The notes under the pieces were generated by a model. That model had not been told where the DNA came from. It saw nothing but the letters and a program-made list of their open reading frames with translations, and did not search any database. Shown in pieces: positions 6,919 to 11,209 of a stretch of 12,327 nucleotides of DNA. The stretch is from Tannerella sp. GTDB lineage: Bacteria; Bacteroidota; Bacteroidia; Bacteroidales; Tannerellaceae. How positions within the stretch are numbered: position 1 is the stretch's first letter; every line of letters begins with the position of its first letter. A program made the translations under genes and the position numbers. Where the stretch lies: positions 1-12,327 of the forward strand of contig JAIRKN010000074.1 of the NCBI GenBank assembly GCA_031260095.1. The letters run 5' to 3'.

Positions 6919-6983
6919 CGTGCATTTTAAGCACAAGAGAATGAAGTCGAAAATTATAGCAAATTCTTATAATGAATATTAGT

Positions 6984-7331
6984 ATGGAAGAAACAAGATT
7001 AAATAAAATAGAACGCCTGTTGCAGAAAGAACTTAGCGAGCTTTTCCGCAAACAGACAGCAGTGATGAAGGGAACGCTCGTTACGGTTAGCAGGGTACGT
7101 GTCAGTCCCGACCTTAGTGTTGCAAAAGTTTATCTGAGTATATTTCCTTCCGAAAAAGGAGATGAGTTGCTGGAATCAATAGAAAGAAATAAAAAGACAT
7201 TGCGCTACGATTTAGGACAAATTGTGCGGATGCAATTGCGCAAGATCCCGGAACTTGTGTTCTATCCTGATGATTCTCTTGATTATGTGGAGAAGATAGA
7301 TAAACTGCTGAAAAAAGAAGAGAGAGATTGA
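6984..7331 (+). CDS. rbfA: 30S ribosome-binding factor RbfA
   Basis: This 115-residue, single KH-like-domain protein matches RbfA, which binds the 30S subunit near the 16S rRNA 5' helix during maturation and cold adaptation. Visible family features are the start METRxNK-like MEETRLNKIERLLQKELSELF, then LVTVSRVRVSPDLSVAKVYLSIFP, LRYDLGQIVRMQLRKIPELVFYPDDSLDYVEKIDKLL. ATG 6984 is preferred because the recognisable N-terminus starts there; ATG 6972 would add MNIS. The stop codon overlaps the start of the next gene in TTGA, so the two are translationally linked. Confidence 0.92.
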   Translation: MEETRLNKIERLLQKELSELFRKQTAVMKGTLVTVSRVRVSPDLSVAKVYLSIFPSEKGDELLESIERNKKTLRYDLGQIVRMQLRKIPELVFYPDDSLDYVEKIDKLLKKEERD

Positions 7332-9415
7332 ATTTAGCTTTTTACATAGCGCGTAGATATTTATTTGCGAAGAAATCGCATAATGCCATAAATATTATTT
7401 CGATGGTGTCTGTTTGTGGTGTTGTTGTCGCTACGATTGCTATGATCTGTACGTTGTCTGTTTTTAACGGTTTCAAAGGGTTTACATCCATGCTTTTCAG
7501 TGTTTTTGATCCTGAATTAAAAATAACTCCCGCGTCAGGAAAAGTTTTTGACCCCACTACTCCTGAGATGCGACAGATCTGTGCGTTTCCTGAGGTAGAG
7601 TATTGTTGTGAAACGCTTCAAGAAAATGCGATTGTCAGTTATGGCGACCGTCAGTCTATTTCTGTGTTGAAAGGAGTTGATACGACCTTCAATAGATTGG
7701 TGGATATTGATACGGCAATTATTAACGGAGAGTTTATTTTAAAAGAAGGCGACTTTAATTATGCCGTAGCAGGCATTGCCTTGGCGTCGGCATTGGGCGT
7801 GAATGCAGGCTTTACGCAACCGGTGGAGATTTATATGCCGAAACGCACCGGGACCGTTAATCTCGCAAATCCGGCCCTCTCCTTTTTTGTAGAATATGTT
7901 TTTGTGGGAGGAGTCTATTATATAAATCAGCCTGTTTACGATGAGGGGTTTATGATTGTGTCGATTGACCTTATGCGTTCGATGCTGGATTATGACAAGG
8001 AGGTATCGGCGCTTGAACTTAAACTTGTATCCGGGGCGGATCTATCATCTGTAAAGAAGAAAATAAAGCAGTTGACGGGGAATGATTTTATTGTTCAGGA
8101 TCGGTATGAGCAACAGGAACTCTCATTCAATATGATGCAGATGGAAAAATGGGTGACTTACCTGATGCTCTGTTTTATCCTCGTGCTGGCATTGTTTAAT
8201 GTTTTAGGTTCGTTAGCTATCTTAATGATAGAAAAAGAAGCCGATATAGTTAAATTACGTAATATGGGAGCAAATAGTCGACTTATAAACAGGATATTTC
8301 TTTTTGAAGGCTGGATGATTTCTCTTATGGGGGCGGTCATTGGTGTGGCGCTGGGTATTTTGTTGTGCCTGCTACAAAAAAGATTCGGGCTTATCTCTCT
8401 GGGCGAAACAGCCGGAACTTTTATCATTGACGCATATCCTGTTGAAATAGAATGGAGGGATGTATTGACTGTTTTTGCGACCGTTATTGGTCTTGGTTTT
8501 CTGGCCGTCTTGTATCCGGTGCACTATCTGGGCGAAAAATGGCTTAATAAAACAGTTGCCGCCTGTTTGTTATTGCCGTTTATGGCGAGTTGCGGAGTGA
8601 AAAATAAAGACCCGAAAGCGGAAGAAGTGAAGGAAATAGCCGTTACAATTGAGCCTCTTCGCTATTTTGCCGAACAGATTGCCGGCGATCATTATACATT
8701 CTTTTCAGTGCTTCCCGCCGGTCAAAGTCCAGAAACGTATGATCCCTCTCCCCGTGAGATGATAAGGGTCGGAAAAGGGGTGGCCTATTTTCATACAGGA
8801 CAGCTTGGGTTTGAACAGGTGTTGATTCATTCTATTCATGAAAATAATACCCATACATCCCCATTTGATTTATCGGAAGGCATGGTTTTTCATGAAGGGG
8901 AGTGCTGTGCGCATGAGCATGGCGGCCATGACCCGCATTTATGGACGTCATTTAAAGGTGCAAAAGTGATATCCGAAAATATCCTGAAAGCTCTTGTTTC
9001 TTTAGATAAAGAAAATCAGACGCATTATCAATCAAATTACAGCCGGTTGACTCAGCGCCTTGATTCGCTGGAGGAAACACTGCATAAACAACTGGAAAAC
9101 CTTTCGTGCCGTAGCTTTGTGATCTATCATCCGGCCCTGACTTATTTTGCGGATGAGTTTGGATTGAAGCAATATAGTATTGAAAATGACGGGAAAGAGC
9201 CTTCTCCCGCTTTCTTGAAAAAACTGATTGAAGAGGCCGGCACAGAGAGGGTTGGCGTTGTTTTTGTGCAAATGGAGTTCGACCGTAGACATGCAAAGCA
9301 GATTGCCCGGGAAATCGGAGCGAAGACGGTCGTTATAAATCCTTTGGATTATCAATGGGACAAACAGATGGAATGGATTGCAAAAGCATTGGTCGGAAAT
9401 GGAAAAGCTGATTGA
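7328..9415 (+). CDS. In-frame fusion: FtsX/LolC-like ABC permease plus ZnuA-like metal-binding lipoprotein
   Basis: One 695-codon frame encodes two normally separate proteins. Residues 1-408 are an FtsX-family permease of LolC/LolE type: cytoplasmic MNLAFYIARRYLF, TM1 about 21-46, a periplasmic domain about 50-264, and TM2 265-291, TM3 about 327-350 and TM4 about 377-400, ending in the cytoplasmic GEKWLNK. A hydrophobic stretch TVAACLLLPFMAS (409-421) then leads to a lipobox Cys at 422. Residues 422-695 are a zinc/manganese ABC solute-binding protein (ZnuA/SBP_bac_9). Likely metal ligands are H489 (AYFHTG), H537 (DPHLW), H601 (YHPALTYF) and D674 (INPLDY); a His-rich loop lies at 522-537. The start is TTG 7328, overlapping the rbfA stop. 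No stop or ATG separates the halves; GTG 8519 could serve as an internal start for ZnuA. The fusion is either real, possibly cut by lipoprotein signal peptidase, or an artefact. Confidence 0.85.
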   Translation: MNLAFYIARRYLFAKKSHNAINIISMVSVCGVVVATIAMICTLSVFNGFKGFTSMLFSVFDPELKITPASGKVFDPTTPEMRQICAFPEVEYCCETLQENAIVSYGDRQSISVLKGVDTTFNRLVDIDTAIINGEFILKEGDFNYAVAGIALASALGVNAGFTQPVEIYMPKRTGTVNLANPALSFFVEYVFVGGVYYINQPVYDEGFMIVSIDLMRSMLDYDKEVSALELKLVSGADLSSVKKKIKQLTGNDFIVQDRYEQQELSFNMMQMEKWVTYLMLCFILVLALFNVLGSLAILMIEKEADIVKLRNMGANSRLINRIFLFEGWMISLMGAVIGVALGILLCLLQKRFGLISLGETAGTFIIDAYPVEIEWRDVLTVFATVIGLGFLAVLYPVHYLGEKWLNKTVAACLLLPFMASCGVKNKDPKAEEVKEIAVTIEPLRYFAEQIAGDHYTFFSVLPAGQSPETYDPSPREMIRVGKGVAYFHTGQLGFEQVLIHSIHENNTHTSPFDLSEGMVFHEGECCAHEHGGHDPHLWTSFKGAKVISENILKALVSLDKENQTHYQSNYSRLTQRLDSLEETLHKQLENLSCRSFVIYHPALTYFADEFGLKQYSIENDGKEPSPAFLKKLIEEAGTERVGVVFVQMEFDRRHAKQIAREIGAKTVVINPLDYQWDKQMEWIAKALVGNGKAD

Positions 9416-10160
9416 AATAAGGAATGTTTCAGTTGTATATGATACAAAGCCTGTGCTGAGAGATGTTTGTCTTGATGTATGGAGAGATGATTTTCTTGGC
9501 GTGATCGGGCCTAACGGAGGTGGGAAAACTACGCTTCTGAAGGTTTTGCTGGGTTTGATGAAACCTGTTTCGGGAGAAATTTCCTTTTTTGATTGCGGGA
9601 AGAATGTATCGTCGTTAAAGATCGGTTATCTTCCACAGATAAATCCGATAGATAAACGTTTTCCCATATCCGTATATGAAGTCATTGCTTCCGGCTTGGC
9701 CGGCGAAAAGCCCCGTTTTCGTAATTTTACATCCTTACAGAAAGAACATATTCATGAACTTATGATTCAAATGGGATTGGAACAATTCGCCGGACGCGCT
9801 ATCGGGGAACTTTCAGGCGGACAATTGCAACGTGTGCTATTAGCGCGTGCCGTTGTTTCACAGCCACAGGCGCTTATTCTTGATGAGCCGAATACATACG
9901 TTGATAAGAAGTTTGAGTCCCATTTTTATGAATTGCTCGGAGAGATCAACCGGAAAACGGCAATCGTACTTGTTTCACATGATGTAGGAACCTTGCTTTC
10001 GATGGTAAAAAATGTGGCGTGCGTAAATGAAACTCTTCATTATCATTGTGGCTCGGACATATCCGGCGATTGGTTGAATGAGGCGTATACTTGTCCTATT
10101 GAGCTTGTCGGACATGGCGATTTGCCTCACAGGGTACTTAAAAAACACGAGAATAATTGA
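9399..10160 (+). CDS. Metal (zinc/manganese) ABC transporter ATP-binding protein, ZnuC-like
   Basis: This 253-residue ABC ATPase has a full set of motifs: Walker A GPNGGGKTT (37-45), Q-loop YLPQ with Q80, signature LSGGQ (138-142), Walker B ALILDEP (158-164) followed by NTYVD, and H-loop H194 in LVSHD. The DEPNTYVD form and the adjacent ZnuA module place it with zinc/manganese importer ATPases. The C-terminus carries several His residues (VGHGDLPHRVLKKH). ATG 9399 is chosen because conserved sequence starts at once; it overlaps the ZnuA stop by 17 bp, indicating coupled translation. No ABC-3 permease follows, so its membrane partner is either elsewhere in the genome or unusual. Confidence 0.9.
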   Translation: MEKLIEIRNVSVVYDTKPVLRDVCLDVWRDDFLGVIGPNGGGKTTLLKVLLGLMKPVSGEISFFDCGKNVSSLKIGYLPQINPIDKRFPISVYEVIASGLAGEKPRFRNFTSLQKEHIHELMIQMGLEQFAGRAIGELSGGQLQRVLLARAVVSQPQALILDEPNTYVDKKFESHFYELLGEINRKTAIVLVSHDVGTLLSMVKNVACVNETLHYHCGSDISGDWLNEAYTCPIELVGHGDLPHRVLKKHENN

Positions 10161-10189: not shown

Positions 10190-11209
10190 ATGGAAGAGCA
10201 AAAACGTATATTAATAACGGGGGCAAGCGGTTTTATCGGAGGGTATCTTGTAAAAGAAGCTTTGAGCCGGGGCTATGAAGTTTGGGCGGGTATACGTCCG
10301 CATAGTTCACGGAAGCATTTGCAGGATGAACGGATTAAGTTTATTAATCTGCGGTATGATTCAAAGGATGCGCTTGTAGCGCAATTACGTGAAATAGCAT
10401 CTTCTGTCGGAGCATGGCGTTATGTAATCCATAATGCCGGTATCACAAAAACGCTTCGGGAGGCTGATTTTTATAATGTCAATGCTTTTAATACACATTT
10501 ATTGATAGAAGCGCTTGCTGCCGCGGATTGTAAGCCTGATAAATTTCTGTTGATGAGTAGTCTTAGCAGTTATGGGCCGGTAAATGAATATTCATTCAGA
10601 CCGATTCGTATAGACGATGACCGGAATCCCGATTCTGTTTATGGGAAAAGTAAATTTGAAGCGGAATTGTTTGTCAAAGCCCAGACTTATTTTCCATACA
10701 TTATATTGTTACCTACGGGAGTTTATGGGCCGGGGGATAAAGATTATCTGATAGAAATAAAAAGTATCCGTTCAGGATTTGATTTGAAAGTTGGTTTGAA
10801 ATCGCAACAGCTTACGTTTATCTATGTTAAGGATCTTGCGGTTGCTGCTTTTATGGCGCTTGAAAACAAAAAAGCCAAAAATGTATCTTATTTTGTTGCA
10901 GATGGTGATGTATATAAAGACACGGATTTTGCGCGACTTATAAAGAAATTATTGGGTAAAAAAATTGTGATAAATCTCCGTATACCTTTCTGGATGTGTT
11001 ATGTAGCCTGTTTGTTTTCCGAAGCGTTTGGTCATTTGGCAGGCAAGGCAATGACACTTAATACCGATAAATATCATATTCTTAAACAACGTAACTGGAT
11101 TTGTGAAACAGAGCCTATTCGTCAGGAACTTGGCTTTGTGCCGCGGTATAATCTGAAAGAAGGGTTGGAAGAAACGATTCACTATAGCAAAAAGCATAAA
11201 TTATTGTGA
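10190..11209 (+). CDS. NAD(P)-dependent epimerase/dehydratase (extended SDR)
   Basis: This 339-residue extended short-chain dehydrogenase/reductase has the cofactor motif GASGFIGGYL (11-20), the NAG-type motif VIHNAGITK (79-87), active-site serines in LMSSLSSYGP (121-130) and the catalytic pair Y151/K155 (YGKSK). GVYGPGD follows, as in sugar epimerases and 3-beta-HSD-like enzymes. The C-terminal third contains a hydrophobic stretch (IPFWMCYVACLFSEAFGHLAG), possibly membrane-associated. The substrate cannot be told. It starts 29 bp after the ATPase gene, probably within the same transcript. Confidence 0.9.
   Translation: MEEQKRILITGASGFIGGYLVKEALSRGYEVWAGIRPHSSRKHLQDERIKFINLRYDSKDALVAQLREIASSVGAWRYVIHNAGITKTLREADFYNVNAFNTHLLIEALAAADCKPDKFLLMSSLSSYGPVNEYSFRPIRIDDDRNPDSVYGKSKFEAELFVKAQTYFPYIILLPTGVYGPGDKDYLIEIKSIRSGFDLKVGLKSQQLTFIYVKDLAVAAFMALENKKAKNVSYFVADGDVYKDTDFARLIKKLLGKKIVINLRIPFWMCYVACLFSEAFGHLAGKAMTLNTDKYHILKQRNWICETEPIRQELGFVPRYNLKEGLEETIHYSKKHKLL

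Follow-up and report, generated by a model that had tools for sequence, protein, structure and literature searches.

In the genus to which our sequence belongs, a LolF/LolC/E-like permease and a complete ZnuA-type zinc-binding lipoprotein are encoded together in one gene. We think it quite probable that the product is a genus-wide polyprotein, born of a single rearrangement that joined two operons, and that it would be matured by Lgt and LspA at a lipobox internal to the chain. The window, that is the whole stretch of DNA analysed here, is 12,327 bp long. The fused gene starts at a TTG that overlaps the TGA stop of rbfA. In its 695-aa product Pfam recognizes MacB_PCD at residues 25-249, FtsX at 279-398 and ZnuA at 437-680, giving the layout permease (1-408), short lipoprotein-type signal (409-421), Cys422 and complete ZnuA. 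The features, by position in the window and strand, are:

6972..7331, + strand: open reading frame that we take to be rbfA, directly upstream of the fusion
7328..9415, + strand: fused gene, LolF/LolC/E-like permease plus ZnuA lipoprotein, 695 aa in a single frame (open reading frame, Pfam)
7328..8551, + strand: permease part, residues 1-408, with MacB-type periplasmic domain 25-249 and FtsX domain 279-398 (Pfam, NCBIfam, structure model)
8531..8551, + strand: GEKWLNK, cytoplasmic tail of the permease and putatively also the basic n-region of the internal signal (sister permease ends, charge count)
8552..8590, + strand: TVAACLLLPFMAS, 13-residue hydrophobic core and c-region of the internal lipoprotein signal (sequence, comparison of fused proteins)
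8591..8593, + strand: Cys422 (TGC), predicted lipidation site, with the predicted LspA cut just N-terminal to it (conservation)
8591..9415, + strand: ZnuA-type zinc-binding lipoprotein, residues 422-695 (PF01297, Foldseek)
9399..10160, + strand: ZnuC-like ATP-binding protein, its start overlapping the end of the fusion (open reading frame, NCBIfam)
10190..11209, + strand: open reading frame after the ZnuC-like gene, presumably an NAD-dependent epimerase-like gene

That the permease and a complete ZnuA share one frame had been read from this DNA in the first-pass annotation, and we find the same: positions 7328-9415 translate stop-free into 695 aa. One may object that an assembly or sequencing error removed a stop codon here, and the genome of the window is indeed fragmented (284 contigs), but 36 genomes of the genus share the in-frame junction, as do 139 database proteins of at least 560 aa. 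This conservation rules out an artefact or a missed stop, and we regard the error explanation as improbable in the extreme. The absence of an indel or stop at the junction, on which the annotation depended, is likewise borne out by the same in-frame join in other assembled genomes at ~49-85% identity.

The family search covered 123 genomes, 41 of the window's genus and 82 of other genera, with matches taken at E <= 1e-60. Within the genus the junction could be read in 37 of the 41 genomes (38 loci) and was in frame in 36 of these 37, so the annotated fusion is conserved in relatives. In 37 of the 38 loci the frame runs stop-free from permease residue 390 to the Cys; the one exception, genome G021, has the permease and ZnuA as two genes parted by a stop, and it is nested in the fused clade. 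In G131 the contig ends ahead of the junction, and a strong match is missing in G130, G015 and G019, whose genomes are 59-79% complete. Runs of N break the fused frame in G120. The locus of G132 (L039, contig C18) is fused at the junction yet has an in-frame TGA at permease residue 363, which could be an error, a pseudogene or real. G122 has two full-length fused copies (L037 and L053), and a third contig of this genome holds a ZnuA fragment; the double copy may reflect mixed strains or a duplication. Two genomes of the genus have an additional, unfused permease copy next to rbfA (L061, G002:C336; L060, G009:C161), and the sister-genus gene order of L061 makes assembly contamination possible there.

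Searches of a protein database gave 206 matches at E <= 1e-3, with both FtsX and ZnuA domains in 119 of the 120 listed, and 616 matches at E <= 1e-150, with both domains in all 120 listed. These searches took proteins between 0.55 and 1.75 times as long as the query, a range that shuts out an unfused ZnuA; the absence of split genes is therefore judged from the genome searches.

Outside the genus, none of the matches listed in the family's 82 remaining genomes crosses the junction: those to the permease stop at residue 417 or earlier and the ZnuA match, where listed, lies elsewhere, just one of the two genes being among the matches listed for some of these genomes. Among 16 genomes of other families, no listed match spans the junction without a stop. 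A sample of 393 genomes of the order contained a match at E <= 1e-150 in six, and only two of these were fused, both of the genus; a more distant fusion in the order could score under this threshold. We conclude that the fusion marks the window's genus, which is probably Tannerella.

The gene orders of unfused relatives suggest how the fusion arose. From the 82 genomes of other genera we examined 11 permease loci and nine ZnuA loci. At the sister permease loci rbfA precedes the permease in 11 of 11, ZnuA is nearby in none, and upstream of rbfA most have a methyltransferase, pyk, aroQ and xerD. At the sister ZnuA loci ZnuC follows ZnuA in nine of nine, with an epimerase next in eight. The genus loci examined (n = 16) combine the two orders: ZnuC follows the fusion in all 16, rbfA lies ahead of it in 13 (the other three begin at or near a contig end), and an epimerase comes after it in eight (in the other eight it was not found, some of these loci ending too early). 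The gene ends point the same way. Unfused sister permeases terminate in ...YPVRYLGKKWLQAR-stop or similar, and eight of the nine sister ZnuA genes encode, immediately ahead of the mature protein, a hydrophobic run closed by a Cys. The h-region has 13-16 residues in eight loci, the ninth, L073, being left out because of a misparsed frame.

We therefore propose, from synteny and gene ends, that in an ancestor of the genus one rearrangement would have brought two operons together, rbfA-permease by its 3' end and ZnuA-ZnuC by its 5' end. At the join the permease stop codon and the ZnuA start would both have been lost, and the basic permease tail (KKWLxK) would have taken over as n-region of the ZnuA lipoprotein signal. 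In phylogenies built from the permease part (49 rows) and from the ZnuA part (46 rows) the genus separates from the others with strong support (99/97 and 100/99), which fits a single origin. Gradual loss of a stop codon between genes that were already neighbours is not favoured, because elsewhere in the family, where both are listed, the permease and ZnuA lie at separate loci.

We next consider the junction itself, where conservation is concentrated on one residue. Position 422 is Cys in all 140 fused proteins compared (140 of 145; the signal statistics below use 116 of 121; all are at least 560 aa, near-identical proteins included). It is one of only two cysteines invariant along the whole chain, and within residues 390-440 the only columns that never vary are G390, C422 and V439. 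Ahead of it stands GEKWLNK, whose final K408 is encoded at 8549-8551, followed by thirteen residues that are mostly hydrophobic or small; among the fused proteins the letters of this stretch vary while its kind stays constant. Position -1 is occupied by G, A, S or N in 112 of the 116 (C, H or M in the other four), and in 101 of 116 a stretch of 12-14 residues separates the last charge from the Cys. Although the last charge ahead of the core is acidic in 12 of 116, the net charge over the 12 residues ending at it is +1 or more in all 116, in keeping with the positive charge that the first-pass annotation had assigned to GEKWLNK. The -1 residue, the short hydrophobic core and the basic flank fit a relaxed lipoprotein signal, as judged from sequence. 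It is to be called a relaxed lipobox match because the strict pattern [LVI][ASTVI][GAS]C is satisfied in only 43 of 116, and the window's own MASC, with M at -3, is among those that miss it. The earlier view of MASC as a usable lipobox would thus hold for a relaxed motif, with an invariant Cys and a small -1 residue. The signal lies ~400 residues into the chain rather than at its N-terminus.

Of the enzymes that would process such a signal, LspA was detected in 38 of the 41 genomes of the genus, the window's among them, and Lgt in 33 of the 41; Lgt was not found in the window's own genome, which is 73% complete. In an AlphaFold model of the chain (mean pLDDT 82.6, pTM 0.49) the junction residues 403-409 and 418-431 have pLDDT <50 and the flanking parts are better modelled; with a pTM of 0.49 the relative placing of the permease and ZnuA halves is not readable from the model.

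These observations suggest the following course. The ribosome would make permease and ZnuA as one chain; the permease helices would insert, bringing the chain back into the cytoplasm after the fourth helix; the short hydrophobic stretch would then re-enter the translocon as an internal signal. Lgt would put diacylglycerol on Cys422 and LspA would cleave just before it, freeing a normal membrane-anchored ZnuA lipoprotein and leaving the permease with a short signal remnant. Processing at C422 had been predicted in the first-pass annotation, and the prediction gains from the Cys (140 of 140), the small -1 residue (112 of 116), the spacing (101 of 116), the presence of LspA and the re-split lineage described below. 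The excerpted text of a study of T. forsythia vesicles (PMC4604654) contains neither of the terms 'solute' and 'ABC transporter', and speaks neither for nor against a polyprotein.

Could the chain instead stay uncut, with the signal-like stretch serving as a fifth transmembrane anchor and ZnuA as a binding domain tethered to the permease? Cleavage is a prediction, the frame is kept continuous across the genus, and a simple anchor would tolerate the letter-by-letter variation of the hydrophobic stretch equally well. An anchor, however, needs no invariant Cys with a small residue before it, and 12-14 residues make a short core for a stable membrane-spanning helix. Moreover, ZnuA works with ZnuB and ZnuC, not with a LolF-like permease, and G021 manages without the link. 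We consider an uncut chain unlikely.

A second alternative is that ZnuA is made mainly from an internal start codon within the permease gene, the read-through fusion being a by-product. In-frame ATG, GTG or TTG codons do occur 13-30 codons ahead of the Cys in 29 of the 37 unsplit loci, the window has a TTG and a GTG inside the permease, and the split ZnuA of G021 has its own ATG. But no such codon is present at 13-30 codons in eight of the 38 loci, so internal initiation cannot be general. There is none at 13-22 codons in 24 of 38 (the window included), ATG is absent in 32 of 38, the V398 codon is GTG in 22 and another codon in 16, and 37 of the 38 loci read through without a stop from permease residue 390 to the Cys. 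Internal initiation thus appears a slim prospect as the main source of ZnuA, and we return to the polyprotein.

The exceptional genome G021 bears on each of these readings. Its permease ends in KKWLKKQL-stop, and its ZnuA (293 codons) begins after that stop at its own ATG with a fresh signal ending LLLWSC. It might be taken for the ancestral unfused state, but its nesting within the fused clade in the permease and ZnuA trees alike rules this out, and it is most simply a secondary split. The covalent link between permease and ZnuA is thus dispensable there, and the two halves can be made apart, the state in which cleavage would leave them in the other species.

Precedents for parts of this arrangement are known. 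FbcH, the cytochrome b/c1 precursor of Bradyrhizobium, consists of a polytopic membrane protein and an exported protein with an internal signal peptide between them, which signal peptidase cuts; the peptidase is of type I, and both products work in one complex. The fusion differs from FbcH in that its signal is of the lipoprotein type, with predicted use of Lgt and LspA, and its products belong to different pathways. The fused ZnuA resembles the ZnuA/AztC lipoproteins in having a complete ZnuA domain, the fold of 1pq4 and a ZnuC-like neighbour, but their signal is N-terminal whereas that of the fused ZnuA is internal, ~400 residues in. In the PubMed Central texts that we searched, no account was found of an internal type II signal or of a permease-ZnuA fusion. 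Bacterial polyproteins cut by a type I peptidase are established; a genus-wide one relying on an internal lipoprotein signal would be new with respect to the literature searched.

Descriptions and predictions of lipoprotein signals usually place them at the N-terminus. In the fusion a lipobox stands 420 residues into a polytopic membrane protein and is kept genus-wide. If cleavage takes place, internal signals are substrates of LspA and Lgt, and the lipoprotein pathway can mature bacterial polyproteins. This bears on lipoprotein prediction, as N-terminal predictors would be expected to miss such a signal, and on the action of LspA inhibitors. The re-split lineage G021 offers a built-in natural control.

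The permease half had been described in the first-pass annotation as a possible lipoprotein exporter. Its likeness to LolF, LolC and LolE is clear in sequence, with matches over nearly the whole permease to LolF (9w2w, E 6.1e-31) and LolE (7arh, E 3.9e-22), and in fold, with a Foldseek hit over its full length to LolC/E (9rld_E, E 7.4e-23, 410 columns, TM-score 0.60 by target); its last transmembrane helix is modelled at 376-400. Its score against the lolCE equivalog TIGR02212, at 208.0 bits, is nevertheless below the curated cut-off of 362.45. Its setting also differs from the Lol systems: it sits between rbfA and a ZnuC-like gene, with a lipoprotein at its C-terminus and with no lolD ATPase beside it. 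No lolD-like match above the cut-off was found in any of the 41 genomes of the genus, and in the window's genome the top lolD-like match lies on a separate contig, C156. According to a review (PMC11784454), lolF and lolD form an operon. Given the missed lolCE cut-off and the rbfA and ZnuC-like neighbours in place of lolD, 'lipoprotein exporter' is to be read as a resemblance: the fold and sequence part of the description holds, and the family assignment and neighbourhood do not support the rest. One could imagine that the permease acts in cis on the lipoprotein at its own C-terminus, so that ZnuA after LspA cleavage would be kept at, or moved from, the inner membrane and the fusion would set the location of ZnuA; we find this very doubtful. 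A second LolC/E-like paralogue, also under the lolCE cut-off at 172.3 bits, was seen in G014 (L085, 4571-5818); by eye, no ABC ATPase gene lies alongside it.

The ZnuA half is unambiguous in family and fold: PF01297 scores 185.4 bits against a cut-off of 29, and the fold is that of ZnuA 1pq4 (TM-score 0.94 by target). A promoter scan upstream of ZnuA was uninformative, promoter-like sites being fewer than in shuffles. For the ZnuC-like protein that follows, the best NCBIfam match is AztA, with ZnuC among the best, both below their cut-offs. The ZnuB-like permeases of the window's genome are on contigs other than that of the fusion; the best match (L087, G000:C201, 3633-4448) lies away from ZnuA-ZnuC, and the zinc importer may therefore be encoded at two separate places. 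Another locus (L088, G000:C159, 2391-4797) holds a second metal-type ABC importer, with an ATPase-like gene, a ZnuB-like permease and a third protein; the latter has zero NCBIfam family matches at 1e-10 and carries an ordinary N-terminal lipoprotein-like signal (MNKMLIRFFICAMGLIVFVSC).
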